From the IMG/VR virus record IMGVR_UViG_3300022696_000140, positions 1 to 55,693 of that record: DNA of 55,693 nucleotides, one strand, 5' to 3'. Shown piece after piece: positions 884-52,300 of this stretch. Both the position numbers and the translations under genes were made by a program. Position 1 is the first letter of the stretch; every line of letters starts with the position of its first letter. This DNA is from a virus. A model generated the notes under the pieces. It made no database searches and was not told where the DNA came from. It saw nothing but the letters and a program-made list of their open reading frames with translations.

Positions 884-1027
884 TCACTGTCTGCTATAGC
901 TTGCGTACCCATAATCACGAAATGTATGTGTACACGATCTTATCGTAGCATCATCATTTAAATACAGCTTAAAAATAGTGATGTGTACATATCTATAGTG
1001 TTCATTCAAAGTTTTTAAATAGATCAT
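884..1027 (-). CDS. Mini-ORF array member, 47 aa
   Basis: Begins MIYLKTLNEHYRYVH. It is the closest relative of the 51-aa member immediately upstream: the first ~38 nt of the two genes differ at only a few positions, so the copies arose by recent duplication. After residue ~20 the two sequences are unrelated. Function unknown. Confidence 0.65.
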   Translation of the reverse strand: MIYLKTLNEHYRYVHITIFKLYLNDDATIRSCTHTFRDYGYASYSRQ

Positions 1028-1044
1028 TCTAATCATTCTAATTT

Positions 1045-1200
1045 TTACAAAGTTTTTAAATCATCATCAGAATATCCTGTAAGCCAACTAACAAAATAGT
1101 ATGGATTATATTCGAGTGTAATTCCAAATAATATATCTTCTTTAAAAGATTGAATTGTTAGACATCTATAGTTTTCATTCAAAGTTTCTAAATAGATCAT
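1045..1200 (-). CDS. Mini-ORF array member, 51 aa
   Basis: Begins MIYLETLNENYRCL and ends in an acidic tail (GYSDDDLKTL). It best represents the array consensus. Its ATG lies 2 nt downstream of the previous member's TGA, with no Shine-Dalgarno motif, which suggests coupled translation. Function unknown. Confidence 0.65.
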   Translation of the reverse strand: MIYLETLNENYRCLTIQSFKEDILFGITLEYNPYYFVSWLTGYSDDDLKTL

Positions 1201-1201
1201 A

Positions 1202-1357
1202 TCAGAAGTTTTTATCATAATATAAATAGCTTATTTGATTATATGTATAAAAATATGGTTTACATAATTCTTCATCAAAACAATCTCCCATAGAAAATTC
1301 AAAATTTTTTATTTTCATTCCCCTAAAATACTCATTAATTGTTTCTAAATAAATCAT
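1202..1357 (-). CDS. Mini-ORF array member, 51 aa
   Basis: Begins MIYLETINEYFRGMK. Start and upstream stop overlap as ATGA. The middle of the protein is acidic (GDCFDEELC) and the end Tyr-rich. Function unknown. Confidence 0.65.
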   Translation of the reverse strand: MIYLETINEYFRGMKIKNFEFSMGDCFDEELCKPYFYTYNQISYLYYDKNF

Positions 1358-1488
1358 AAAAAATAATATCCATTACGATACACACTCAAACGAATATATT
1401 GAATACCAACAAAATAAAATAGATATTGATCAAAATCATTTAAATTACATGCTCTAAAAAAAGCATTCTCATTTTCTAAATAGATCAT
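1354..1488 (-). CDS. Mini-ORF array member, 44 aa
   Basis: Begins MIYLENENAFFRACN. ATGA overlaps at both ends link it to its neighbours. The nucleotide start (ATGATCTATTTAGAAA) is nearly identical to that of the 51-aa member at 1045-1200. Function unknown. Confidence 0.65.
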   Translation of the reverse strand: MIYLENENAFFRACNLNDFDQYLFYFVGIQYIRLSVYRNGYYFL

Positions 1489-1610
1489 ATACGATAAAAT
1501 GGTTTAAAAGGTTCATAATAAAAACAATTCTCAATATTTAATATAAATATTTTAAAACTAGAAATTTGACAACTTCTAAACCATTCATTTTGAGTCGTTA
1601 AATATTTCAT
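1485..1610 (-). CDS. Mini-ORF array member, 41 aa
   Basis: Begins MKYLTTQNEWFRSCQ and fits the signature. It is joined by ATGA overlaps on both sides. Rich in Phe, Tyr and Ile. Function unknown. Confidence 0.65.
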   Translation of the reverse strand: MKYLTTQNEWFRSCQISSFKIFILNIENCFYYEPFKPFYRI

Positions 1611-1753
1611 GATTTATTTTCTATTGTAGTCATCTCAAGATAGATATTGCTGTAATCTTCATGAGTATAGCAGTTTATAGACATACAGAAAATATACATT
1701 TCATACCAACGAAAACTATAATTTTGACAAACTAAATAAATTTCATTTTTCAT
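1607..1753 (-). CDS. Mini-ORF array member, 48 aa
   Basis: The signature is offset by three residues (MKNE, then IYLVCQNYSFRWY). It ends with an ATGA overlap to the next gene and overlaps the upstream member by 11 nt. Function unknown. Confidence 0.55.
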   Translation of the reverse strand: MKNEIYLVCQNYSFRWYEMYIFCMSINCYTHEDYSNIYLEMTTIENKS

Positions 1754-1889
1754 AAAAATCTAAATCTACTTCTATAATGTAAAATCCCTGAAGTGAGGAA
1801 TATAAATTGTTTAGAATTTCAATTGGATAGTTACATAATAATTCAATTGGACAAAATCTATAAATTGCTGATACAGTTCTATAATACAT
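1743..1889 (-). CDS. First, most divergent mini-ORF array member, 48 aa
   Basis: Begins MYYRTVSAIYRFC; Thr, Tyr, Arg and Cys fall where the array signature has them, but Leu and Asn are replaced. It has only a weak upstream AAGAAAG. It is the promoter-proximal member in the leftward direction. Function unknown. Confidence 0.45.
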   Translation of the reverse strand: MYYRTVSAIYRFCPIELLCNYPIEILNNLYSSLQGFYIIEVDLDFYEK

Positions 1890-3183: not shown

Positions 3184-3277
3184 TTTTGGTTTGTTTTTGG
3201 TTGAGGCCCCTTGCCTCAACCTCTACTAATAATATATATAATGGCACTGACGTGCGCAAGTATTATTTATATAAATA
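3184..3277 (-). repeat. Late-promoter/hairpin cassette, copy B
   Basis: Intact copy: palindromic TATTTATATAAATA at 3264-3277, small GCAC/GTGC stem, AT run, then the 9-bp GGTTGAGGC/GCCTCAACC hairpin near 3199-3221, leading into the ribosome site of the 178-aa gene. The leader after the hairpin (AAACAAACCAAAAAGGAAG) matches copy D rather than copies C, E and F. Confidence 0.85.
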
Positions 3278-3285
3278 GTGTATTT

Positions 3286-3918
3286 TCAATCCCAAAGCGT
3301 CCTATAATATGTGACAAAATACGACAAACCTTTTTTAAGCTCTCTAATCTCATCTTTTGTTAGAGAATTTCTATCTCTACCCAACAGATGGAAAGAGTAT
3401 TTTATTTTGTTGAGAATTCTTTTCCATGCATTTAAACCATCATCAAAATCACTATAATGTTTGTTCAATCTTCCTGGATGGGATTTTATATTTTGGATGT
3501 AATATTCTAATCTTTTATACCACCATTCCGATATTTTTTTCGAAAACTCTTTTTCTTCTAACATAAGAACTTTAAAATTTTTCATGCCATGAACAAATTT
3601 GGTGTGTATGTTTTCTTCCCACACAAACAAATCTTTTTCTACCATATAAAAAGAAAAAATAATATCAAGAAAAAAATCAACCCTGTTACTATTTTTATAT
3701 AGATAATCAAAATTCCAATTTAATAGAATTGGTAAAATGTATTTTGAGAAGCTGTAATCCAAATTCCACACATCTCTACAATCCCACCCATTTTTTAAAT
3801 AAAATATCAAATATTTTATTTTTTTATCAATATGATAGAAATATTTAAAATCATAAACCAAAACATAAATAAATCTATTTATTTTTTGGTTGATTGGTTC
3901 TTTTGCTTCAAAATTCAT
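3286..3918 (-). CDS. Conserved phage hypothetical protein, 210 aa
   Basis: Rich in Trp, Tyr and Phe, with the segment GWDCRDVWNLDYSFSKYILP (residues ~44-63) typical of a widespread phage family of unknown function. The ribosome site AAAGGAG precedes the ATG. It is preceded on the minus strand by a GTGTG/CACAC hairpin in the 77-nt gap. No enzymatic motif seen. Confidence 0.7.
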   Translation of the reverse strand: MNFEAKEPINQKINRFIYVLVYDFKYFYHIDKKIKYLIFYLKNGWDCRDVWNLDYSFSKYILPILLNWNFDYLYKNSNRVDFFLDIIFSFYMVEKDLFVWEENIHTKFVHGMKNFKVLMLEEKEFSKKISEWWYKRLEYYIQNIKSHPGRLNKHYSDFDDGLNAWKRILNKIKYSFHLLGRDRNSLTKDEIRELKKGLSYFVTYYRTLWD

Positions 3919-4647: not shown

Positions 4648-4749
4648 CCATCTCCTTTTTTGGTTTTCTTGGTTGAGGCCCCTCGCCTCAACCTCTACTA
4701 GTAATATATATAATGGCACTATCGTGCGCAAGTATTATTTATATAAATA
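4648..4749 (-). repeat. Late-promoter/hairpin cassette, copy C
   Basis: Intact copy with palindromic late box at 4736-4749. The hairpin loop differs from copies A, B, D and F by one base (GAGGG instead of AAGGG) while the stem is kept, consistent with selection on the RNA stem. It feeds the 215-aa gene. Confidence 0.85.
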
Positions 4750-4784
4750 GTGTATTTTTTTGAGAAAAATGGTGGATTTTAAAG

Positions 4785-8635: not shown

Positions 8636-8646
8636 GGCAACCTCCT

Positions 8647-8676
8647 ATGATATGGTTCGCCAAACATTGTGTACAA
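8647..8676 (-). promoter_or_regulatory. sigma70-like promoter, first of a matched pair
   Basis: Minus strand TTGTAC (8671-8676), 18-nt spacer, TATCAT (8647-8652). The upstream bases ATCATACGTATAGTTGTAC are identical in the second promoter at 9166-9195. It serves the 128-aa gene. Confidence 0.65.
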
Positions 8677-8715
8677 CTATACGTATGATACATGTATGCT
8701 GTAAAGTGATCCACC

Positions 8716-9154: not shown

Positions 9155-9165
9155 TAGCCACTCCT

Positions 9166-9195
9166 ATAATATTGTCGCACAGGCATTTTGTACAA
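9166..9195 (-). promoter_or_regulatory. sigma70-like promoter, second of a matched pair
   Basis: TTGTAC (9190-9195), 18-nt spacer, TATTAT (9166-9171), with the same upstream ATCATACGTATAG element as the promoter at 8647-8676. It serves the 100-aa Cys-rich gene. Confidence 0.65.
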
Positions 9196-9214
9196 CTATA
9201 CGTATGATGCACTT

Positions 9215-11143: not shown

Positions 11144-11212
11144 CTTCCTTTTTGGTTTGTTTTTGGTTGAGGCCCCTTGCCTCAACCTCTACTAATAATA
11201 TATATAATGGTA
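11144..11212 (-). repeat. Late-promoter/hairpin cassette, copy D (truncated, hairpin only)
   Basis: Contains the AT run and the 9-bp hairpin but lacks AATACTTGCGC and the late box, because the upstream gene ends immediately before it. The gene behind it (10696-11136) would be transcribed by read-through from cassette E. Confidence 0.8.
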
Positions 11213-11230
11213 AAAGAAAAACAAACACAT

Positions 11231-11596
11231 TTAAAGTATTTCTAAATGCATATCCTCCCCTTTGTTTATTGCTGAGTAAAACCATACACCATTTTGAAAA
11301 ACGTATATGTATTCTGCATCAGATGCATCGCAATAATCTTGCAATTTTTCTCTATATACATTCTTGGAATAAAAACCGTCAGATAAATGATTGATACTTC
11401 CATCCTCTTCAAAATTTTTGATGTCATTGCCGTTACCATCACCATCAAAAATTTCATCTGGATGTTTTGAGTTGATGCCATTATAATGGGTTTTTAAGAT
11501 TTTACCATTATATTCTGGATAACCATCATAGTGACAATAAATTACGTCATATCTATTGTCCTCTACTAATCTTGCGATAAGTGATCTTGTGGCCAT
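11231..11596 (-). CDS. Conserved phage hypothetical protein, 121 aa
   Basis: Begins MATRSLIARL and contains I-Y-C-H-Y-D-G-Y-P-E (residues ~19-28), the hallmark of a common phage family of unknown function, then an Asp/Gly-rich middle. GGAG precedes the ATG and cassette E lies immediately upstream, so late expression is likely. Confidence 0.75.
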   Translation of the reverse strand: MATRSLIARLVEDNRYDVIYCHYDGYPEYNGKILKTHYNGINSKHPDEIFDGDGNGNDIKNFEEDGSINHLSDGFYSKNVYREKLQDYCDASDAEYIYVFQNGVWFYSAINKGEDMHLEIL

Positions 11597-11599
11597 TTT

Positions 11600-11702
11600 T
11601 CCATCTCCTTTTTTGGTTTTCTTGGTTGAGGCCCCTCACCTCAACCTCTACTAATAATATATATAATGGCACTATCGTGCGCAAGTATTATTTATATAAA
11701 TA
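11600..11702 (-). repeat. Late-promoter/hairpin cassette, copy E
   Basis: Palindromic late box at 11689-11702 and the hairpin. One stem pair has changed from C-G to T-G relative to other copies, leaving the stem intact. It drives the 121-aa gene and, via copy D, the glycosylase-like gene. Confidence 0.85.
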
Positions 11703-11734
11703 TTAGATTTTTTTGAGAAAAATGGGGAAATGAT

Positions 11735-21933: not shown

Positions 21934-22950
21934 TCAAAAAAACTGTTTTTTGTTTCTTTTATTATAATATTTTTCTATTGATTTAGCAACAGCACAAATA
22001 ACTTGAGGATTAACTGATCGAGCCAATCTTTCATATTTTTGTTTCCACGCACCAACTAATATAAAATCGTCTGGGAATCCCATCAACCTCTTAACTTCTT
22101 TTATTGTATGTCTTCTTTTTTCAAAAGGATGACATATACCACGAGCTGAAACATCAGATTCTGTTTGAACTAATGTACGACTCGGAAGATCCCATCTATT
22201 TTTTCCAAAATTGAATGCTTTATAATGATTTTCTCCAACATTTACAGAATCATAAAATTCGTATGCTTTGTATTTATTGGCGGCTTCAAATAAAAATTTT
22301 AATTCATCTGGATCATTTTTTATATTTTCAATAGCATCTTTAACAGATATTTTTTCTGAACTATATGTCGGGTTAGGATATGTAAAAGACCTATATAACA
22401 AATCATTTCGAACAGAAACAAAAATAACTCTTTCTCTATTTTGTGGAGCACCGAAATCAGTACCATTCAAAATTTTATAAAAACAAGTATAACCAATTTT
22501 CATAAATTGATGAACTATTTCATTTAAAACTTTTTTTGATTCGCCAATAGTTAACCCCTTAACATTTTCATTGACACAAAATTTCGGTCTTATCTGATCA
22601 GCCAATCTTATAAATTCAAAAAACAAATCATCAACTCTTTGCTTCTTGCTAGAATATGCTTTTACTTTGTTCCAGCCTTTTTCTCTTATGCCACTCATAG
22701 AAAAAGATGCACAAGGAGGACTACCGTCTAATATATCTAATTCACCAACATTCAAATTTAACTCTTTTAAAATATCCTCACCACACACATTTCTAACATC
22801 ATCAAAAAAAACTTTTGCATCTGGAAAATTTTTTTTATAACAATCGACAGCATTTTCTATAAATTCTACACAAGCCAGAACATCCATTCCAGCCATCTTA
22901 TAACCTAAGCTAGATCCACCACATCCAGAAAATGTACTAACAACTTTCAT
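21934..22950 (-). CDS. Cytosine-C5 DNA methyltransferase with altered motif X
   Basis: 338 aa from MKVVSTFSGCGG, whose ATG overlaps the CmoA-like stop (ATGA). Motif I F-S-G-C-G-G-S-S; IV G-S-P-P-C-A-S-F with the catalytic Cys; VI E-N-V; VIII Q-N-R-E-R-V; IX/target region R-H-T-I-K-E-V-K-R-L-M-G-F-P. The expected motif X Q-x-G-N-[AS]-V is L-A-R-S-V-N-P (residues ~314-320): the near-invariant Gly-Asn is Ala-Arg (Arg codon CGA at 22018-22020). All catalytic residues are intact, so the enzyme should be active, possibly with a non-standard cofactor. No restriction partner nearby. Confidence 0.93.
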   Translation of the reverse strand: MKVVSTFSGCGGSSLGYKMAGMDVLACVEFIENAVDCYKKNFPDAKVFFDDVRNVCGEDILKELNLNVGELDILDGSPPCASFSMSGIREKGWNKVKAYSSKKQRVDDLFFEFIRLADQIRPKFCVNENVKGLTIGESKKVLNEIVHQFMKIGYTCFYKILNGTDFGAPQNRERVIFVSVRNDLLYRSFTYPNPTYSSEKISVKDAIENIKNDPDELKFLFEAANKYKAYEFYDSVNVGENHYKAFNFGKNRWDLPSRTLVQTESDVSARGICHPFEKRRHTIKEVKRLMGFPDDFILVGAWKQKYERLARSVNPQVICAVAKSIEKYYNKRNKKQFF

Positions 22951-23609
22951 TTTATACATAAAATCCCTACAAATTTTTGAGATTGCCAAAAAGTAGTTAC
23001 TTTTGAAAATCCAACATTTTTACACAATTCAATATTTTCTTCCAATGACATTTTTTTCATCATGTGAATTAGTTGATTATCTTTTTCAAAAATCTCTTCC
23101 AAACTAAAATTTTTTCTTTTATGATTATATATACTATTCTGCATTATAAAATCTAACTCAGAAAAATAATCAACCTTTTCACTAAAAACAAAACACCCCT
23201 TATTGTTTAACCATTTATATATTTTTTCAATTAATATCTTCCTTTTATTTAATGGAATGAAAACTAATGTAAAAAGAGAATAGACAAAAGAACAATTATC
23301 AAATTCCATGTTTAATATATCATCATTCAAAAAATTTATATTTTCATAATTTTTATAATATTTCTCAAAGGATTTTTCTATCTCAATTGCATAATAAGAA
23401 ACGTTTTTTTTAAAAACTGACATGTCTAAATAAATATCATTTAACATTTTTCCTGTAGAACTACCAATATCAACAACATTAGTATAATCATCAATAAAAT
23501 ATTTTGATATATCTTTAACATCCTGACACAATGAATCATAGTCTCTAATTGAATTAAAAATATGCTCATCAAATTCATTAGCCATATTTTTAAAAGAAAA
23601 AGTTTTCAT
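22947..23609 (-). CDS. CmoA-like SAM-dependent enzyme (possible carboxy-SAM synthase)
   Basis: 220 aa class I SAM fold: V-V-D-I-G-S-S-T-G-K (residues ~46-55), Y-A-I-E-I-E (~73-78), N-D-D-I-L (~95-99). The second half follows E. coli CmoA closely in order: F-T-L-V-F-I-P at NFTLQFLEP, K-I-Y-K-W-L-N at KIYQGLN, C-F-V-F-S-E-K at ALVLSEK, H-K-R-K-N-F at FKRANGY. CmoA makes carboxy-S-adenosylmethionine from SAM and prephenate. In my hand alignment the column of CmoA Arg199, which contacts the carboxylate, holds Asp, so the product is uncertain. Translationally coupled to the DNA methyltransferase. Confidence 0.75.
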   Translation of the reverse strand: MKTFSFKNMANEFDEHIFNSIRDYDSLCQDVKDISKYFIDDYTNVVDIGSSTGKMLNDIYLDMSVFKKNVSYYAIEIEKSFEKYYKNYENINFLNDDILNMEFDNCSFVYSLFTLVFIPLNKRKILIEKIYKWLNNKGCFVFSEKVDYFSELDFIMQNSIYNHKRKNFSLEEIFEKDNQLIHMMKKMSLEENIELCKNVGFSKVTTFWQSQKFVGILCIK

Positions 23610-24436: not shown

Positions 24437-26317
24437 TCAAATAATTTCACAAGCCCCGCCACCACACGCAACTTCTCCCTTTAAATCTGTATTGTCTTTA
24501 TCTTCAGATACTTTAGTTAAATCTATTTTTCTTGCAAACTTTGAAAGTTCGTTATATTTACTTTCATCAATTTCTTCAAATGGTGCTTGAACATATGTGC
24601 CACCATCATGAGGCAACACTGAAATACCGTTATAGAAATCTCTATTGTTCCACATCCACTCACCGACTTCATCCCATTCATCATCTTTTAAATTAACAGT
24701 ACAACTAACATTATGTGTGTTGTGTCCAGAAACATGAGAAGGACTGATCCAATCTTTATGAAAACGTTTGACTCTTTCAAGTAAGTCTAACGATCTCTCA
24801 GTTCTAAATATAGCAGAATCGCTATTCACTTTAATAGGAATAGAAACTACTCCCTGAGTGTATGGTTTGTGAAAATCATCTTCAACTAAATTAGGAATAG
24901 CTTTTTTAAGATAATTATAAATTGCTTCATCCTTGCCAAATCTCATTCTACGAACATAATAAGGAGAATGCCACGAATGAATACCAGAAGAAGTTCCTAA
25001 CACAAGAGAACCACTACCTTCAGGTTTAATTGTTCCTATTCTCTTTGCTGGATTGATATTAATAATGTTAGCAACTCTTTCATTTTCTTCGATAGATAAT
25101 TTTGAAGATTCTTTAATATCGAATTCTAAAATTTTACCTGAAGCAATTCCTGTCATAGAAACACCTAACAATGCTTCATTTTCAGCGTTTTCTTGCCATT
25201 CTGGTCTCAAATAATGAAAATCTGTATAGCTTGCTTGAATGGTTCCTATCAGTGTAGCAGCTTTAACTCTTTTGTTAAGTTCTTCTTGGCTATCAATATC
25301 CGAAACATTAATACTTGTTAGATTACAAAATCCCATCGGTCTAAGAGAAATTTCAGCACATGGATTTGTTCCAGCATCTTTATCATTACTTAAATACAAT
25401 CCAGGCTCACCAGAACCAGAAGCCCTAACTCTATCCCAAAGAAATTTAAAATCTTTATTCTTTATTCTATGTCTAAGCATAAAGACTGAATTGTTGGCTC
25501 TTCCTCTTTGTGGGTTAAGTTCCCACCAATTACCAAATTTACATTCCATCATTTCATGATCATTAAAACTAAAGAGAGAAATTAATGCTGATCTACGAAT
25601 ACCACCAGATAAAACAGCATCTGCTAAATGACAACAAATATCATGAACTTCAATTGGTTTTATACTACACCCAAAACCCCTTTCAGATATTGCTAAGTCT
25701 AAAACCTTTTTTACATTATGCAAAGCATCTTTTAATGGTTGAGCGCCAGGAGCAATACCACCAGCTGTTTTGAGAGGAGTTCCAGCAGGTCTAATATCAC
25801 TAAAATCAAATTTCGGCATTGGTTTATTGAAAAAATATGCCTTCATTAAAACTTTAACAGCATCAGACCATCCAATTATTGAATCCTCAATTAAAAATTT
25901 TCTTGTTCTTTTTGATGGGCCGAGAAGTGTAGGAAGTTTTTGTACATGATGAAACTGTACAGAATAACCAACACCACATCCACACATCAATAGAAACATC
26001 ACCTCATGAAAAGCCTCCCATGAGTCTATTGGTAGATATGAACAATTGTATTGTCTCGCATGATTCAACTCAACAGCTCTACCAGCAAATTGACAAGAAC
26101 GCATTGATGGCAAAACTTTTTTATCTCTAACAAAATTGAATGCTTCTTTTATTTCATTTTTAAATTCAGAATTTAAATCTTTATATTTTTTTAAATGCAT
26201 ATTCTCTATTCTGTCAACAATCTCATTCCATGTTTCTCTTCTACCTAAGTCACTTCTATATTTAGCATATTTTGAATATACAGTTAAGTCTGATAAAATT
26301 TTAATAGAATTGTCCAC
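24437..26317 (-). CDS. nrdJ: Adenosylcobalamin-dependent ribonucleotide reductase (class II, monomeric RTPR-like)
   Basis: 626 aa. Substrate-site Cys in Q-Y-N-C-S-Y (~89-94), L-L-M-C-G-C-G-V-G-Y-S-V (~108-119), active-site N-P-C-A-E-I-S-L (~314-321) with F-C-N-L-T-S-I-N downstream, and a C-terminal shuttle C-G-G-G-A-C-E. No beta-subunit gene is present, as expected for the B12 class. T4 uses the class I NrdAB pair instead. GTG start, preceded by GGAGG; the upstream 39-aa ORF stop overlaps it by 1 nt (TAGTG). Confidence 0.9.
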   Translation of the reverse strand: MDNSIKILSDLTVYSKYAKYRSDLGRRETWNEIVDRIENMHLKKYKDLNSEFKNEIKEAFNFVRDKKVLPSMRSCQFAGRAVELNHARQYNCSYLPIDSWEAFHEVMFLLMCGCGVGYSVQFHHVQKLPTLLGPSKRTRKFLIEDSIIGWSDAVKVLMKAYFFNKPMPKFDFSDIRPAGTPLKTAGGIAPGAQPLKDALHNVKKVLDLAISERGFGCSIKPIEVHDICCHLADAVLSGGIRRSALISLFSFNDHEMMECKFGNWWELNPQRGRANNSVFMLRHRIKNKDFKFLWDRVRASGSGEPGLYLSNDKDAGTNPCAEISLRPMGFCNLTSINVSDIDSQEELNKRVKAATLIGTIQASYTDFHYLRPEWQENAENEALLGVSMTGIASGKILEFDIKESSKLSIEENERVANIININPAKRIGTIKPEGSGSLVLGTSSGIHSWHSPYYVRRMRFGKDEAIYNYLKKAIPNLVEDDFHKPYTQGVVSIPIKVNSDSAIFRTERSLDLLERVKRFHKDWISPSHVSGHNTHNVSCTVNLKDDEWDEVGEWMWNNRDFYNGISVLPHDGGTYVQAPFEEIDESKYNELSKFARKIDLTKVSEDKDNTDLKGEVACGGGACEII

Positions 26318-35805: not shown

Positions 35806-38352
35806 TTAAAAAAATGTATCTTTTTTATTTATATTTAAATCGACATCTCCCCACCCAACAACATGAAAAACTCTTTCTATTATTTTTTCAAAAGTTCTCC
35901 CCCACTGTAAATCATAATCAATTTTAAAATATTTGTCAAATTCTTTAGGCCAAGTATTTATAAAACCAACAACTTTAGCTTGTATTTTATTATCATCATT
36001 GATAAAAACATATTTTATTTTTGTTCCATTCTTAACATCTTGATAAGGCAAATTATATTTCTTGATCATAAAATTATAATTTATAGCAGCTTTATTATAT
36101 ATTGGTGATCCTTTTTTAAACCTCAATCCATTTTCAACATACCAATCAAAACTCTCTGAGTATTTATCATAATCACTAATACCAACTGGTAGCCCAATCT
36201 CTGTTGCATCTTTTGTTAGGAATTCTTTTTTAATATTTCTAATTTCTTTAATTATTTTGTGTCTATCTTGATATTTAAAAATGTCATCTACAATCTTCTC
36301 TAATTTTTTTCTACAAAATAGAGGAGTGTCTGTTTTTTTGATCTCAGCGCCAGTGACACTAATTTTAGGTTTGTCTATATATAATTTCTTCTCATCAGCC
36401 ACCGCTTGAGTAATATACTTCTTTTTTGCCATTATTAACATATTAGATGCAATTTTTTCTCTTTTAAAATTTATTTTATTTTCAACATCATACCTCTCAA
36501 AATATTTATCCAACATCATATCCAAATATGGCTCAAGTTCATTTTCAACAAAATCATTAGACCATTCAAAAAAATCTTTATTATTTTTAAAACTCATTCC
36601 AATTTGTTCAAATGCATATTGAAGAGTAATATAACAAGAGTCTGTGTCAATAAGAATAACACTATCCTTATTTAATTTGAAATCGATATTTCTTTTTTTC
36701 CAAAATAAAACAGACATATAATGATTTAAACATTTTCTAAGAAATTTTATTAAATGTTGCCCACCAAGTGTGATAGCCATCGCATTTGTAATATTGAAAA
36801 AATGAAATTTCTCATTACATAAAACACCATATAAAGAGTTAATGAGAATTTTTCTAACCATCTGTTGATGTTTATAATAAACATCACTAAAATTTTCATT
36901 CTTGACTTCTTGTATTAATTTTTTATCGAAATCCTCTAAAGAATTATTTTTATCTAAACCATCTTTGATAAACATTTTTTCTTTATACATTTTTCTTTCA
37001 TTGAAAATGTACTCAACAATTTCTGATAATATACCCTTACCACGTTCATAATAAACATCCTCAATATCAAAATTTCCTTGTTCAGTTTTCCATATCTTCT
37101 TTTCTGATAAAGGCGTTTTGATATATCCTTCTTTATAACAATCTCTAATAGTTTCTGGGCCAATGTTATATTCCATAATCATATTAGGATATAGACTTTC
37201 AACATCAAAAGAAACACAATATTTAAAAAGCCCCTGATTGGCAAAAACAAAACCGCCGGGGTTGCTATGAGTTTTCTTTATGTTTTTCTTCTTTGGTAGA
37301 ACTATATCTTTTCGATGTAAAAAATTTAAAACATATCCCAACAAAGTGACCATAGTACCAAAAATACTATCAAAAGGTGTTAAAGATTCATAACATAAAG
37401 TAACCGCAAGTTCAATAAATTTTAATTTATTCTCTAACTTATCAATCAATAAAACATCTTGAATATTATATTCTACAAAAGAATCCCAATCATGATTATA
37501 TACATCGTTTATTGTTCCTTCATAATCTAACTTGCCTTCACCGAGTTCATCTTCAGCAATAAATTGCAAAGAATATCTTTCCTTTGGTTCAAAAGTAAAT
37601 CTTTTATATAATTTTTGATAATCTAATATACTAACCCCTGGTATGGAAAACTCTTTTGTTCTTTCGTTATATTTCTCAAAACCTAACGGAGAAAAACTAT
37701 ATTCCTTAGAATCTATTTTTAAAAAATTTCTACGTCTTATAATATAAGGAATATCAAATCCATGAATATACCATCCAGTCAAAATGTCAATCTTAGCTTT
37801 TTTGATAATAGTGAAAAACTTCTCAAGCAATTTTTTTTCATCTGGTATGTGATAATAGAAATCTGGCTTTATAACATTGCCACTTTTATCTTTTTGCCCA
37901 GTAGTTTTATATGGCCTATTACCAAGAGTGATAACTTTATTTTGCTTTGTTAATTTTATTGTTATTAAATTTATAGGAAAACGAACTTCTTCTGGATCTG
38001 GAAATTGGGTAGATTCACATTCGATGTCAATATTACAAATATTTATTTTGCTAATATCCACACCAAAATCTTTTCCACCATATTTTTGCTGTAAGTATTT
38101 TATATCAGGTTTAAGGTCGGATTCGGCATATTCAATTTTACTATTTTTTATTTCATTTATTTTATATAAATCTTTAGTTGTTCTTTTTGATTTACGATTT
38201 CCATATATATCTTTATAATCACCATCAGAATCATCAACATAATAATCAAATTCCAATTTCTCTTTTATAAAATTTCTATTGTTAGTATCTTTATTTATAT
38301 ACCAATGATATATATGATTAGTCTTATAATCATAATAAGTGTTAATAAACAT
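35806..38352 (-). CDS. 43: DNA polymerase, family B (gp43)
   Basis: 848 aa (T4 gp43 898). Exonuclease I D-I-E-C-E-S (residues ~107-112), ExoII near D-I-L-T-G-W-Y-I-H-G-F-D (~190-201), polymerase motif A F-D-V-E-S-L-Y-P-N-M-I (~383-393), motif B K-I-L-I-N-S-L-Y-G (~501-509), motif C I-D-T-D-S-C-Y (~570-576). Intact replicase with proofreading; no intein or intron. Confidence 0.95.
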   Translation of the reverse strand: MFINTYYDYKTNHIYHWYINKDTNNRNFIKEKLEFDYYVDDSDGDYKDIYGNRKSKRTTKDLYKINEIKNSKIEYAESDLKPDIKYLQQKYGGKDFGVDISKINICNIDIECESTQFPDPEEVRFPINLITIKLTKQNKVITLGNRPYKTTGQKDKSGNVIKPDFYYHIPDEKKLLEKFFTIIKKAKIDILTGWYIHGFDIPYIIRRRNFLKIDSKEYSFSPLGFEKYNERTKEFSIPGVSILDYQKLYKRFTFEPKERYSLQFIAEDELGEGKLDYEGTINDVYNHDWDSFVEYNIQDVLLIDKLENKLKFIELAVTLCYESLTPFDSIFGTMVTLLGYVLNFLHRKDIVLPKKKNIKKTHSNPGGFVFANQGLFKYCVSFDVESLYPNMIMEYNIGPETIRDCYKEGYIKTPLSEKKIWKTEQGNFDIEDVYYERGKGILSEIVEYIFNERKMYKEKMFIKDGLDKNNSLEDFDKKLIQEVKNENFSDVYYKHQQMVRKILINSLYGVLCNEKFHFFNITNAMAITLGGQHLIKFLRKCLNHYMSVLFWKKRNIDFKLNKDSVILIDTDSCYITLQYAFEQIGMSFKNNKDFFEWSNDFVENELEPYLDMMLDKYFERYDVENKINFKREKIASNMLIMAKKKYITQAVADEKKLYIDKPKISVTGAEIKKTDTPLFCRKKLEKIVDDIFKYQDRHKIIKEIRNIKKEFLTKDATEIGLPVGISDYDKYSESFDWYVENGLRFKKGSPIYNKAAINYNFMIKKYNLPYQDVKNGTKIKYVFINDDNKIQAKVVGFINTWPKEFDKYFKIDYDLQWGRTFEKIIERVFHVVGWGDVDLNINKKDTFF

Positions 38353-39569: not shown

Positions 39570-40631
39570 TCAATTTCCTTTATTTTCTTCATATTTTTCC
39601 AATAGATATTTTTGTACTTCATCTTTGTTAGAAATTTCTAATTCAGATACGTATTCTCTCAACAACACACCAATATCATTTATATTAACATCATCAATAT
39701 TACTTTCTAACGTAGAATCCTTTTCATTATTTATACTAACATTTATTGGAAATAATGGATTATAACTATTCAATTTCTCAATATATTTATTTATTTCTTT
39801 ATTCTTTTTTGAATCGTATTCATCATCAATTGTTATAACTAAATCAACATGATTATTTTTGATATCTTCTTCTTTTGGAATGTTAGGATATTCAACAACA
39901 ATATGCTTCATTGTTTTTTGTGAATTTATAAATTCATATTCTAAAGTATTGGTATCTAAAACACAAAAACCTTTTTCACTATAAGAATCTGATCTTGTCA
40001 TTTCATAAGGTGAACCCACATAAATAATTTCTGAGTTATTTATTTTTCTAACATTCCTAAGATGAAAATGTCCAGTAAAGGTTTTTACATAATTGTTATA
40101 AAACAGTTTACTATTAAAACCATTATCACATATTTTTTTATTGTTTAAAGCAAAACCATTAATTTCAAAGTGTCCAAAACACACATCACACTCAATGTTC
40201 TTGTTAGCAACACGTTTTCTAAAATCTTCTCTATCTACAATCCAAGGAACAAATAAAAACTTCTTACCATTATCATCTATCAACTCAATATCTTCAAAAA
40301 CTCTTATGTTAGAGAATTTTTTTAAAAATTTTATTGAGTGTGTTCCCAAACTATTTGAGTAGTATATGTCATGATTACCAAGCAAAACATATATATTAAA
40401 CAATTCGTTCATTGTATCAAAAAGCTCATACACTTTATTTAGAACATAACTGTTTAAACTATTTCTATTATCAAAAACATCTCCAAGAATAACAACATCA
40501 GAAATATCATTATCTTTACAATATGGAATAAACTCATCATAATAAAATTTGAGCTGGTTTTCTAAAAATGTTTTATTTGATTTTTTAACACCAAAATGTA
40601 AATCTGCTAACAAAGCTATTTTATTCTTCAT
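39570..40631 (-). CDS. 47: Recombination nuclease subunit gp47 (SbcD/Mre11 type)
   Basis: 353 aa from MKNKIALLADLHFG (T4 gp47 339); this ATG overlaps the gp55 end. Phosphoesterase motifs D-L-H-F-G, G-D-V-F-D (residues ~48-52), G-N-H-D-I (~84-88), G-H-F (~139-141 and ~178-180). With gp46 it resects DNA ends for recombination-dependent replication. Confidence 0.92.
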   Translation of the reverse strand: MKNKIALLADLHFGVKKSNKTFLENQLKFYYDEFIPYCKDNDISDVVILGDVFDNRNSLNSYVLNKVYELFDTMNELFNIYVLLGNHDIYYSNSLGTHSIKFLKKFSNIRVFEDIELIDDNGKKFLFVPWIVDREDFRKRVANKNIECDVCFGHFEINGFALNNKKICDNGFNSKLFYNNYVKTFTGHFHLRNVRKINNSEIIYVGSPYEMTRSDSYSEKGFCVLDTNTLEYEFINSQKTMKHIVVEYPNIPKEEDIKNNHVDLVITIDDEYDSKKNKEINKYIEKLNSYNPLFPINVSINNEKDSTLESNIDDVNINDIGVLLREYVSELEISNKDEVQKYLLEKYEENKGN

Positions 40632-41007
40632 CCATACCCTCAATATCATCCACCTCAATAGAATCATTAAAATCTAATGAAGTATATCTTTTTATTAAAA
40701 TGTTTTGTTTGTTTAGATATTTATATATTTCATTTTTTGTTATTGTGGTAAAATATGATAATGGATTTTTATGCTCATCTACATCATATTTGTCAATAGC
40801 TTTTACCATATAATATAAACAAGAGCTTTCCATTTCATCTTTTCTATCAGAACTGTACTGTATCAAATTGGGATTTTTTAAATAGTTTCTAACAATTAAA
40901 ATAAATTTCTTACCAATTCTCTCATATGCCTTTTTGTTACCATTTTTTTTATATTCAACAATATCTACATAAAAATTTTTATTATTTATATAATTTTTTT
41001 TTGTCAT
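40621..41007 (-). CDS. 55: Late-transcription sigma factor (gp55)
   Basis: 128 aa, shorter than T4 gp55 (185). Conserved core: Y-E-R-I-G-K-K-F (residues ~27-34), D-R-K-D-E-M (~54-59), a Y-M-V-K-A-I-D-K-Y-D segment (~66-75) and Y-F-T-T-I-T-K-N-E-I (~85-94). Directs host polymerase to TATAAATA promoters, which are abundant here. Lies between gp46 and gp47. Confidence 0.88.
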   Translation of the reverse strand: MTKKNYINNKNFYVDIVEYKKNGNKKAYERIGKKFILIVRNYLKNPNLIQYSSDRKDEMESSCLYYMVKAIDKYDVDEHKNPLSYFTTITKNEIYKYLNKQNILIKRYTSLDFNDSIEVDDIEGMDEE

Positions 41008-43698: not shown

Positions 43699-43980
43699 TT
43701 ACCACTCAAATTTTTGTTTAGCTCTACCAGGAAGATACCCAATCTGACGTCCTTCACCTATATACAGGATTGCGCACCCTTGTATATATTCTTCACAATA
43801 ATCATCAACACCATCCCATACATCAGCAGCAAGAGATTTTTCAACTTCACCAATAGCAACAACACTCGCAATCGTATTTTCAAACGGCCAATTTGGTTGG
43901 GTTGCTAATCTTACTTCAGTCTCATCACCATGAGACTCTGCGAACTCCTCAAGTGTTTCGATAAGTTCTCTTACATTCAT
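43699..43980 (-). CDS. Conserved small protein, 93 aa
   Basis: Contains D-E-T-E-V-R-L-A-T-Q-P-N-W-P-F-E (residues ~19-34), characteristic of a small family found in phages and bacteria without known function. Acidic overall. AAAGGAG precedes the ATG and late cassette F lies directly upstream. Confidence 0.75.
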   Translation of the reverse strand: MNVRELIETLEEFAESHGDETEVRLATQPNWPFENTIASVVAIGEVEKSLAADVWDGVDDYCEEYIQGCAILYIGEGRQIGYLPGRAKQKFEW

Positions 43981-43984
43981 TTCT

Positions 43985-44087
43985 CATCTCCTTTTTTTGG
44001 TTTTGTGGTTGAGGCCCCTTGCCTCAACCTCTACTAATAATATATATAATGGCACTGACGTGCGCAAGTATTATTTATGTAAATAAT
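43985..44087 (-). repeat. Late-promoter/hairpin cassette, copy F
   Basis: As copies B, C and E, with the hairpin and AATACTTGCGC. The box is TATTTATGTAAATA (44072-44085), so the palindrome is imperfect: leftward CATAAATA remains, rightward TATAAATA is lost. Confidence 0.85.
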
Positions 44088-44282
44088 AAAAAAATTCATC
44101 AAATTTGAGCCATTTTGGGCAATTTTAAAGAAAAAATAAAAAAATTGAAATAAAAAACATCTTTTTTCGCTCAAAAACGTAAATATTTGTTCTCATTAGT
44201 AAAGAAAAAATAGTATAATTTGTTTCTATTTATAGAAAACATTAAAATGATTATATCGTTAAACGCTTTTTTCTGATAAAAT

Positions 44283-44290
44283 TATAAATA
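44283..44290 (+). promoter_or_regulatory. T4-type late promoter core before a non-coding region
   Basis: TATAAATA on the plus strand. No plausible protein gene begins within 800 nt downstream; the next rightward gene is uvsW at 45170. It points directly at the structured region 44300-44706. Confidence 0.65.
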
Positions 44291-44299
44291 AATCTAAAG

Positions 44300-44706
44300 A
44301 AGCATAATACATCTCATCCGTATAGTGAGTTGAAACGTACTCATATCACATCAAATTTTTAGGTTTGGTGTAGATAAAAATAGCACCGGATGATAGTCGT
44401 TTGGGTAGTAGACTAACAAAACATACCCACGATACCGAAGATGGAGTCGTCTGAGATAAGTATGGCCATCGAAGGGGTAGTCGATTTAATCATGGTGTAT
44501 TCTATGGTTAATAATGCCGTTGTTAGAGTGATATTGCGTGACTTTGTATGTCCAATTCCTCTGTGGGGGCATTCCTCTCTCTCAATTCCAAATCCCAATT
44601 TAGAGAAGCATTGTACAGGACAACCGACCAATGTAAAAAGAATGTATATATCCATTCCCCCATCCCACACGTTAGTTTTTAAAAAATTCTAACAGTGGGT
44701 GGGTAG
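44300..44706 (+). ncRNA. Candidate structured non-coding RNA, about 400 nt
   Basis: Noticeably richer in G+C than its surroundings and full of nested complementary segments: CATCCG (44315) with CGGATG (44387) enclosing two hairpins; TGGGTA (44402) with TACCCA (44424); GATGG (44440) with CCATC (44466); TAATCAT (44487) with ATGGTTA (44504); AATGCC (44513) with GGCATT (44568); and a long end stem of CCCAC plus GTTAG with CTAAC plus GTGGG (44664-44699). It begins ~10 nt after a late promoter. Overlapping open frames on both strands (83 and 85 codons) lack ribosome sites. Class not recognised. Confidence 0.55.
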
Positions 44707-44931
44707 AACTATATCCAAATCTTTATATTATATATTTCAATATATTAATTTATAATAATTTAATCTTTTAAAGATTTTAAAAAATTCATGATAATCAGGA
44801 TGTTGAGTATTTTAAAGAATTGAAGAAGTTAATATATACATTAAATTTTCAATCTGCTTTTTAAAGCTACATATAAAAACTCATGTTAACACATTTACCA
44901 TATAAAATAAAAAAAATAAAATTAAAAGTAC
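44707..44931. other. AT-rich gap with no visible feature
   Basis: Very AT-rich spacer between the candidate RNA and the hairpin cluster. No ORF, promoter core or strong hairpin seen. Could be unwinding DNA of an origin, but nothing specific supports this. Confidence 0.4.
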
Positions 44932-44991
44932 ATCACCATCGCTACCAAACGCAGTTTGGTTAGATGGTGATTTTCGACCTTTGGTCGAAAA
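44932..44991 (+). terminator. Two stacked hairpins with T-rich tail
   Basis: First hairpin: ATCACCATC/GATGGTGAT (44932-44971) continued by ACCAAAC/GTTTGGT with loop GCA. Second: TTTTCGACC/GGTCGAAAA (44971-44991) with a 3-nt loop. A T-rich run (44992-45012) follows on the plus strand. Likely 3' end of a transcript from the late promoter at 44283. Confidence 0.7.
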
Positions 44992-45015
44992 AATCTTCTT
45001 TTTTCTTTTTTTAAG

Positions 45016-45049
45016 GATTGAAGATATTAACTTCTTCAATCGATTGAAG
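45016..45049 (+). promoter_or_regulatory. Mutually exclusive hairpin elements upstream of uvsW
   Basis: GATTGAAG occurs at 45016-45023 and 45042-45049, and its complement CTTCAATC at 45034-45041 lies between. Either copy can pair with the middle element but not both, the arrangement of an attenuator; CTTCAATCGATTGAAG is also a 16-base palindrome and could be an operator. Confidence 0.5.
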
Positions 45050-45117
45050 TTCATGAAAACCTATGGCGGGTACCCTATCGGGGAAATTATATCCAAAAAT
45101 AACAGCACATTTCATAT

Positions 45118-45125
45118 TATAAATA
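45118..45125 (+). promoter_or_regulatory. T4-type late promoter core before uvsW
   Basis: TATAAATA followed by CTTATATC, 45 nt upstream of the uvsW ATG. Confidence 0.7.
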
Positions 45126-45169: not shown

Positions 45170-46714
45170 ATGAAATTAAAACTATTCAATCAAGTCTATT
45201 TTCAAATATATGGTATTGAATTCGATCAAAGCAAAGAGTTGTCAAACTACATGACAACATTTGCCAAAAATTACAAATTCCATCCGAAATTCAAGCAAGG
45301 TATTTGGAGTGGAAAAATTTCTTTCTATGATCATGCACTTCAGATATTTCCAATTGGATTGTTGAGTGTTTTCATTAAATTCTGTGAAGATTTTCAATAC
45401 GAATACTCATTCGGATTCAATCCACAATCCATTTTATATGACAATACATTAAAAAATAAAGAATTAAATAGTTTTTATAAAGAAATTTTCAACAATGTTA
45501 AAATGGATGGTAAGCCTTTAGAGTTGAGATATTATCAAAAAGAGGCAATTGAAAATATATTAAAAAACAAAAAATGCACCATTGAGAGTGCCACAGGAAG
45601 CGGAAAAAGTCTTCTCATATACACAACAATTAGATATATAAAAAATCGTTGTGATATTGAAGTTGAGAATTATAATAAGAGTCTTGTTAAAAAAAATAAA
45701 ATTTTACTTGTTGTTCCTAATGTTTCTTTGGTTGAGCAGATGTATTCTGATTTTAAATCGTATGGTTATACTAACATAGAGAAAGATGTTGACGTTTTAT
45801 ATAATGGTAAACAACTCTCTAACAAACAGATTTTAATATCCACATGGCAATCAATACATAAAAAGAGTGGTGATTTTTTTGAACAATTCTATGCTATTCT
45901 TGTTGATGAGGTTCATGGTTTGGGTAGTAGCGCATCAATCCAAAAGATTGTTAAGAAATGTATAAATTCTCATTATCGTGTCGGATTCACTGGCACATTA
46001 CCAAATGAGGAAATAGATCAATACAACATTTTCGGCTATCTCGGCCCCTGTGTGTATCGATTGAATAGCTCTACGTTAATCGATAAGGGAATACTATCAA
46101 AAATACTTATTGTTAATCTCATTCTACAATATCCAAAAGAAGTTAAGGGTGTTTTGAAAAAGAAGAAATATGATGAAGAAGTGAGTTTTATAGCCACACA
46201 CCAAGAAAGAAATAAAGTCTTTGATTATATACTTAGTAAACAAAAAGAGCCTAAAAATACTTTAATATTGTGTACAAGAATTTTTCATTTAAAAGATATT
46301 GTAAAATATCTTGAGAATAAATATTCTCATAAATATAAAATTCTTACGATTCATGGCTCTGTTGGTGTTGAGAGAAGAGAGAAAATAAGAAAGTTGATGG
46401 AAAAAAGAAATGATATTCTTCTTGTGGCTACTTATGCAACTTTATCTACTGGTATAAATATTAGAAATCTTCACCATGTGGTTTTTGCATCTTCATATAA
46501 ATCTAAAATAAAAGTATTGCAATCTATTGGTAGAGGTTTAAGATCGAATAAGAATAAAAATAAAATGGTTCTTTGGGATATTGTAGATGACTTCACATAT
46601 ATAAAGAGGACTAAAAAAAGATTTTTGAATTATACTTTTAAACACTGGCTTCTAAGGTTGAAATATTATAAAGATCAAAAATTTAAGTATGTTAATAAAA
46701 AAATAAATATATAA
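45170..46714 (+). CDS. uvsW: RNA-DNA/branched-DNA helicase UvsW
   Basis: 514 aa (T4 UvsW 502). N-terminal domain with F-K-Q-G-I-W-S-G-K-I-S-F (residues ~40-51), Walker A S-A-T-G-S-G-K-S (~141-148), Walker B L-V-D-E-V-H-G (~244-250), motif III G-F-T-G-T-L-P (~277-283), motif VI S-I-G-R-G-L-R-S (~459-466). Ends origin replication by unwinding R-loops and remodels forks. Late expression from TATAAATA matches T4. Confidence 0.93.
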   Translation: MKLKLFNQVYFQIYGIEFDQSKELSNYMTTFAKNYKFHPKFKQGIWSGKISFYDHALQIFPIGLLSVFIKFCEDFQYEYSFGFNPQSILYDNTLKNKELNSFYKEIFNNVKMDGKPLELRYYQKEAIENILKNKKCTIESATGSGKSLLIYTTIRYIKNRCDIEVENYNKSLVKKNKILLVVPNVSLVEQMYSDFKSYGYTNIEKDVDVLYNGKQLSNKQILISTWQSIHKKSGDFFEQFYAILVDEVHGLGSSASIQKIVKKCINSHYRVGFTGTLPNEEIDQYNIFGYLGPCVYRLNSSTLIDKGILSKILIVNLILQYPKEVKGVLKKKKYDEEVSFIATHQERNKVFDYILSKQKEPKNTLILCTRIFHLKDIVKYLENKYSHKYKILTIHGSVGVERREKIRKLMEKRNDILLVATYATLSTGINIRNLHHVVFASSYKSKIKVLQSIGRGLRSNKNKNKMVLWDIVDDFTYIKRTKKRFLNYTFKHWLLRLKYYKDQKFKYVNKKINI

Positions 46715-49343: not shown

Positions 49344-52300
49344 ATGGCGACTTCCGGTCTAACAATCCAATCTGGTAAGACTACTTTTGCAAGTAGTAGC
49401 GATACTCACACCGTCACTATTAGTGCAGTTGATTGGTCTAAGGCGTGGATTGAATGGAGTATAGACAATGACGGTTTGAATGCGTCTCAGAGTCTGTATC
49501 GAGTGAGACCTGGAACATCTACTCAGATAATTTTTGAATCGCAAAATTCTGAAAATGCGATAATATCGTGGAAAGTGATTGAGTACGCCAGTGGGGTTGC
49601 CGTTCAACACAATAGCTCCACGCCTAACTCCGCAGGAGCTACGATAAACTACACGCTTTCGGCGGTTGATCTGGCTAAGAGCTGGAACATAGTCAGTTTC
49701 ACATCTCGATTTTCAAGTGAAAGATCAAGCTGTAGGGCATATTTTAGTAGCACTACTCAGGCAAGTGTCGAGCTGGTACGAAGCCGTGACCTTACAGTCA
49801 CCACTGTTGAGCACGATGATGCATCGGTGCAAGAGGATACGGTAAGTTTTCCCGGAACTAACACAACTCAGTCAATTGCAATCTCAACCGTCGATACAAC
49901 TAAGTCCATTCTTTTTGGTGGATATGCTGCAGGCGCCGACAGTGGTTTGGAGCATCGACCGCAATTCAGATTTACCACATCTACGAATGTTGAGGTTACG
50001 AGAGCTACGGCGCTTGGCACTAACTGCAATGTGACTGCGTATTCTATTGAGATATCGACCGCAGACGTGCAGCACGTTAGATCGAGTCAAGCCGGAACGG
50101 TTTGGAATCCTACTTTTACCACACCGTCAAACACGGGAAACGCTTATGCACGCCTGTCTACTAACGGCTGTGATATACCAGAGATAGATGAGAATGAGGT
50201 TCGGCGCGATACTGGGGGATGGACGGCGCAATACTCCCCACCATCGACGGTAAATTTAGAGCGCTCAAGCGCTTTTGGAACATCCCAGATCAATCTCGAT
50301 TTAGTTGAGCTTGGTTTGTCTACTGGAGGTGTTGATACCAGTGCAAGTTTAAACACAGAATCATTAACACTAAGTTCATACGATACTACAATTACTACAA
50401 CAGAGAGTGTTGTTAATGATTTAGATGTAGACTCCTTATTGTTGAGTATATACGATACTACAATTACTACAACAGAGAATGTATCTACTAATCTTGATAC
50501 TGAGTCATTAACTCTAAGTTCGTATGATGTAGATGTTATTAATATTGATAATATAATTTCAGTTTTAAACACAGAATCATTAAATTTAAGTTCATACGAT
50601 ACTACAATTACTACAACAGAGAATGCATCTACTAATCTTGATACTGAGTCATTGAATTTAAGTTCGTATGATACTACAATTACTACAACAGATAGTGTTT
50701 TTACTAATCTTGATACTGAGTCATTAAATTTGAGTTCATACGATGTAGATGTTTTAACAGTAGAGGCTTCAATTGTAAATTTAGATACTGAGTCATTAAC
50801 TCTAAGTTCGTATGATACTACAATTACTACAACAGAGAGTGTTGTTAATAATTTAGATGAACAGAATTTAATTTTAGATATTTATTCAGCCAATGTTGAT
50901 ACTATTGGGGCCGTAACTACTAATCTTAATACTGAATCTCTAACTTTAAGTTCATATGACACAACAATCACTACAACAGATAGTGTTGTTAATGATTTAG
51001 ACGTAGAATCTCTAAATTTAAGTTCTTATAATGTAGATGTTGTTAATATTGAAAATGTTTTTACTAATCTTAATACTGAATCTCTAACTTTAAGTTCATA
51101 TGACACAACAATCACTACAACAGATAGTGTTTCTACTAATCTAAATACTGAATCTTTAACATTAAGTTCATATAATGTAGATGTTAGTTTAGGATCATCT
51201 ATAGATGTAGACGTTAATAATCTTATTTTAGATTTTCATGAAGTTTCTGTAGATATTGCTGGCGCTGTTCAAGTAAATTTAAATGTTCAAAATTTGGTTT
51301 TGGGTTTTTATGATACTACAATTACTACAACAGAGAATGTATCTACTAATCTTGATACAGAATCATTAACTTTAAGTTCATATGATGTCGATTTTATTTC
51401 AAGTATTGAAAATGATTTAGATTTTCAGTCATTAGTTTTAGATGTATATTCTGTTACTATAATTAGTGAAGGTGTTAATGTTGTAAGTCTTGATACAGAA
51501 TCTTTAACTTTAAGTTCATATGATGTTGATGTCTTGGCTGTAGGTTCTGAAACAGTAAATCTTGACACTCTGCCTCTAAATTTAAGCTCATATAGTGTTG
51601 ATGCAATCTCACAATCAAATTCTTTTGTTGTTTTAGATGTAGAATCTTTAACATTAAATTCATATAGTGTTGATGTTGATTTTGGTGTTTTTATACAACC
51701 AACAACAATTAGTCTAAATATAAATACTGTGCCATTATCTTTAGAGACTAATAATAACATCTCTCAAGAATTACTATCTTTAAATATAAATATATATGAT
51801 ACTATTGTTAATATTATAAGATTTGATACATCAGCTACTGTAGATGTTTTCAATTTATTATTGAACAATGCTGGTGTTGGAATATCTGTTGATAAAAATT
51901 TTCCAAATTACAATGAGGTTAGTGTAATGCCTACTAATTGGCTTAGAAAAAGATGTGGTGATGATTATGACAATGAAAGAGATTTGCATGCTAGATTGCA
52001 AACTGAGAGAAATAATCATCATGGTGTATGTGTTCAATATCATATTATAACTTTTGATACTTCTTATAATAAGATATGGGGAGAAGATGATAATAGAAGG
52101 TTTGTTAGAAGTTTTCCTGTTATGGCTTATTATGAATTGCCAAAAGAAGATGAGGTTTGGTCTAAGTTTGGTATTGAAGGTTTAGATCAGTTTAGTATGT
52201 TTGTTACTAAGTTACATTTTACTGAGGCTTCTAAATTTGATAAGGATGGGGCTTATCAAGTATCTAGTTCTTACACACCAAAGATTGGTGATGTTATAAA

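Follow-up and report, generated by a model that had tools for sequence, protein, structure and literature searches.

A candidate structured non-coding RNA behind a late promoter in the divergent region of a T4-type phage fragment

Among the described phage-encoded RNAs, the large ornate RNAs GOLLD and ROOL, known from phages and prophages, are the closest to the locus reported here: they are long, structured and stand-alone, they code for no protein, and GOLLD RNA rises during phage lysis (PMC12286853). GOLLD members often exceed 800 nt, one ROOL RNA measures 659 nt, and both often lie near tRNA islands. Structured RNAs are also known from T4-like phages, namely wcaG and manA (PMC2864571, PMC9964418), a precedent that tells against the opinion of an earlier note on this DNA that structured RNA of this size is unusual in a lytic phage. 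Both act in cis as regulatory leaders of metabolic genes. No phages are better studied than those of T4 type, yet in the literature searched a stand-alone late structured RNA is not described for them.

The candidate described here is predicted from sequence to resemble GOLLD and ROOL in being phage-encoded, long, structured, stand-alone and devoid of a protein, whereas at ~410 nt it is shorter than these RNAs and lies 37 kb from the four tRNAs of its genome fragment (at 5.3-6.9 kb) rather than near a tRNA island. Covariance models of GOLLD and ROOL gave no match in it, even when filters were permissive and E was allowed up to 5, and those of wcaG and manA gave none either. Unlike the latter leaders of metabolic genes, the candidate precedes uvsW, from which hairpins and a separate promoter divide it. 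With T4 late promoters the locus shares a perfect 8-bp TATA box, TATAAATA, A+T-rich DNA just downstream of it and a gp55-family gene in the genome (PMC2988020), but T4 late promoters lead into a gene, whereas the box at 44283 precedes an 879-nt non-coding interval.

The window, that is, the whole 55.7-kb stretch analysed (IMG/VR virus record IMGVR_UViG_3300022696_000140; 28.6% G+C overall), is T4-type in content, with gp43 DNA polymerase, a portal protein, a gp55-family late sigma factor and a UvsW helicase. Most genes as far as 43980 are on the - strand and, from 45170 onward, on the + strand, and the 1189-nt gap that separates these two blocks, one early and one late, houses the candidate RNA (Table 1). 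The region 44283-44706 is known from one assembly; a sibling contig (L082), identified by a 100% polymerase match and 99.8-100% identical over the compared stretches, stops at window position 37030. The early-leader cassette adjoining the region (43999-44097) shares 96% identity with a copy that the sibling contig carries, which argues that the candidate-RNA region belongs to the phage.

Table 1. Features of the divergent region and its surroundings, in positions of the window
Feature	Position	Strand	Details
gp55-family late sigma factor	40621..41007	-	phrog_234 match, E 3.7e-14
Divergent early-type promoter and leader-hairpin cassette	43980..44097	-	one of six copies in the window
Perfect T4-type late promoter TATAAATA	44283..44290	+	first T at -13, predicted +1 ~44296; T4 spacing (PMC2988020)
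Candidate structured ncRNA	44296..44706	+	39% G+C island without coding signal
Predicted three-way junction	44314..44393	+	P1 44314-44320/44387-44393, hairpins 44325-44344 and 44345-44375; p<0.001, 1000 shuffles
Middle region, local stem-loops	44394..44657	+	264 nt; energy no better than shuffles, p 0.29
Predicted 3' hairpin	44659..44703	+	CCCA/CCCAC/GTTAG...CTAAC/GTGGG/TGGG, 14 bp plus; p<0.001
A+T-rich spacer	44707..44928	.	222 nt, 84% A+T
Two strong hairpins, then T-rich tract	44929..45015	+	hairpins 44932-44971 and 44972-44990; z -7.2 for 44916-45060
Separate TATAAATA	45118..45125	+	44 nt upstream of uvsW start
UvsW-type helicase	45170..46714	+	next + strand gene after the island

The window also carries several families of repeated elements. 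The early-type promoter of the phage, with the motif AATACTTGCGC... CATTATATATATTA and a leader hairpin GGTTGAGGC...GCCTCAACC, is present in six - strand copies (1-99, 3191-3289, 4663-4761, 11157-11255, which is truncated, 11616-11714 and 43999-44097), and the sibling contig (L171) has further promoter/leader copies. Late boxes that overlap back to back, TATTTATATAAATA, stand just upstream of early-type promoters at 74-87, 3264-3277, 4736-4749 and 11689-11702. A 51-nt repeat on the - strand (8642-8692 and 9161-9211), directly upstream of two genes and ending in a ribosome-binding site, is a second shared leader type. Short units ATGATCTATTTAGAA (MIYLE...) recur at ~900-1800 (-) within a long A+T-rich stretch, with similar copies in the sibling contig, and are possibly a family of small ORFs, while 72-nt (24-residue) tandem repeats occupy 50330-51674 within a late protein of 1072 aa that belongs to no known family. 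Other - strand genes encode a C5 cytosine methylase (21934-22989) and a protein (24437-26317) that matches the barrel domain of ribonucleotide reductase and, more weakly, the B12-dependent type.

The late-promoter core that the earlier note saw facing the region is a perfect TATAAATA, which starts 14 nt ahead of a G+C island; the probability of such a box arising by chance no more than 40 nt from where the island starts is 0.012, as estimated from shuffles of the 221-nt upstream tract. The box is enriched in the fragment (46 copies vs 16.7±4.5 expected) and stands upstream of 42932, 45170 (uvsW) and 52593; for several genes, uvsW among them, the distance is within 60 nt. It resembles a sigma-70 -10 box too. 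The early-type motif, known from its six - strand sites, was not found on the + strand at the start of the candidate RNA, so that late control is the better reading of the sequence.

The description of some 400 nt of relatively GC-rich DNA likewise held, as 44297-44706 has 39.3% G+C vs 18.1% and 15.8% in its non-coding flanks, with sharp borders. The neighbouring gene 43699-43980 is also ~40% G+C, and G+C islands therefore need not be RNA. Two ORFs cover the island, one of 83 aa on the + strand and one of 85 aa on the - strand, with coding scores of -0.04 and -0.15, below the 0.19-0.62 of 42 phage genes; a ribosome-binding site was found for neither, and a protein family search and tblastn gave no match. 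The island thus shows neither the codon usage of the phage nor a ribosome-binding site, in agreement with the earlier view that it holds no credible protein start.

The minimum free energy of the island has a z between -2.7 and -2.9, and 16 of 138 other windows of the fragment (12%) also reach z <= -2.5, which makes energy alone a weak argument for structure. The ensemble measures are more distinctive: 180 of the 410 nt of 44297-44706 pair at P>0.85 vs 79±39 in shuffles, and the mean ensemble entropy of the + strand is 0.45 vs 1.07±0.26, with none of 150 shuffles lower. The reverse complement has a shuffle-like entropy of 0.99, and the predicted fold is accordingly both well defined and strand-specific. 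By pairing count as well as by entropy the island ranks second among 554 fragment windows of the same length; the first, a coding-strand window (43201-), exceeds it on the ensemble measures and consists mostly of coding sequence, which shows that an RNA gene is not required for one value of this kind.

The structural signal is confined to the two ends of the island. At the 5' end, the three-way junction recognized earlier is real in prediction (p<0.001): its 7-bp P1, CATCCG/CGGATG, has a mean P of 0.94 and closes two hairpins. At the other end stands the 3' hairpin, possibly the processed 3' end of the RNA. The nested organization proposed for the whole survives only in part: the defined fold, the junction and the 3' hairpin stand, whereas "nested" was an overstatement, since the 5'-3' closing pairs of the first minimum-energy structure are not robust (P ~0.3-0.5), no stable helix encloses the whole molecule, and the middle does not differ from shuffles. 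Outside the junction, the predicted RNA is a row of local stem-loops, of which those at 44403-44428, 44440-44470, 44486-44511, 44578-44606 and 44608-44634 in the middle persist in two folding contexts. All of this fold evidence comes from one sequence, where selected structure and chance look alike.

Farther downstream lie terminator-like hairpins with a T-rich tail (44929-45015), which the earlier note had overlooked. The hairpin pair 44929-44991 is the strongest local fold found in a fold scan of the window, and together with the T-rich tract it is likely to be the terminator of the transcription unit.

Rfam at curated and permissive thresholds (E up to 5) gave no match in the island, in line with the earlier note, which could place the RNA in no known class. 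BLASTN of phages and plasmids returned chance matches of 30-36 nt only, and exact 16-20-mers of the region had zero matches in IMG/VR; a 19-mer present in bacterial genomes came from three unrelated contigs without flanking similarity. A single-sequence covariance model of 44299-44434 (R1), run on 162 loci and 18 records, found only itself, which at its low power is weak evidence; a 20.7-bit match at 3598-3673 (-) falls within a gene and was discounted. By protein, the nearest UvsW in IMG/VR is 48% identical, the polymerase leads to the sibling contig at 100% and to a relative (L083) at 40%, and a gp46 search of IMG/VR yielded no relatives. Ten relatives have a gap of ~406-457 nt ahead of uvsW that at first seemed promising, but the two inspected (L104, L153) hold a 149-aa gene overlapping uvsW. 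By no route was a homologue of the candidate RNA found in these collections, which may omit this genome's own or closest records; on its sequence, the region is an orphan candidate RNA, of no family shown.

The best reading of 44296-44706 is a gene for a stand-alone, late-transcribed structured non-coding RNA acting in trans, which we hold with moderate confidence. Directly established are the promoter sequence, the composition island, the lack of coding signal, the strand-specific predicted fold, the downstream hairpins and the gp55 gene; the transcription, its timing, the ends and the trans action of the RNA we infer. The structured RNA under a late promoter that the earlier note proposed stands to the same extent. 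It is unlikely that the stretch has no RNA function and is an acquired or decaying piece of higher G+C content with chance folding and a chance late box, as the empty homologue search, the shuffle-like middle, the similar G+C content of the neighbouring gene and a coding window that folds as definitely might suggest; the position of the promoter, the sharp borders and the strand-specific fold are mutually consistent, and long non-coding gaps are few in such phages (1.54 Mb of relatives hold 10 of at least 500 nt that lack a 100-aa ORF), though this window has seven.

Less probable again is a cis-acting leader, a long 5' UTR of a uvsW late operon, in which read-through into uvsW would be controlled by the folds of the RNA or by the hairpins at 44929-44991. 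This gene is indeed the next on the same strand, the intervening hairpins with their T-rich tail are attenuator-like, and riboswitch-type leaders, wcaG and manA, are known from T4-like cyanophages (PMC2864571). The terminator-like element and the perfect TATAAATA of uvsW's own argue against it, as do the distance of ~466 nt from the 3' hairpin to uvsW, which includes 222 nt of 84% A+T, and the lack of a match to Rfam leader families in the island. The least probable alternative is a T4-type R-loop replication origin formed by the promoter and the A+T-rich tract, with the hairpins as landing or blocking sites and the RNA as primer. The cumulative GC skew turns at the divergent junction, where the coding-strand switch by itself accounts for the change; the A+T-rich tract after the promoter and the strong hairpins would suit an origin, as would the adjoining uvsW, whose product removes origin R-loops in T4. 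T4 origins, however, rely on middle-mode promoters rather than late ones, and a primer would not require a G+C island of 410 nt that has a defined fold on the + strand.

If the region is a stand-alone late RNA gene, the phage's gp55-type sigma would, late in infection, guide the RNA polymerase of the host to the box at 44283 (TATAAATA), and transcription would start near 44296. Given the terminator-like hairpins, the primary transcript would run to 44929-44991 and measure ~700 nt, unless processed after the 3' hairpin (44703), which would leave ~410 nt. The folded RNA would consist of the three-way junction on its 5' side, successive stem-loops and, shielding its end, a stable 3' hairpin, and may act in trans as a stable structured RNA, which a late promoter and such a hairpin would fit. 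Most likely it would serve as the core of a particle, made of RNA and protein or of RNA only, and not as an antisense regulator; complementarity to the translation starts of the 59 window genes is not outstanding (best z -3.6), which speaks against a simple antisense effect on mRNAs of the phage itself. It is tempting, if doubtful, to see here a novel class of large late phage RNA, a structured particle in virion production that is GOLLD/ROOL-like but unrelated. If real, the candidate would bring an RNA component into T4-type late development and give one more reason to ask about the functions of large phage RNAs.
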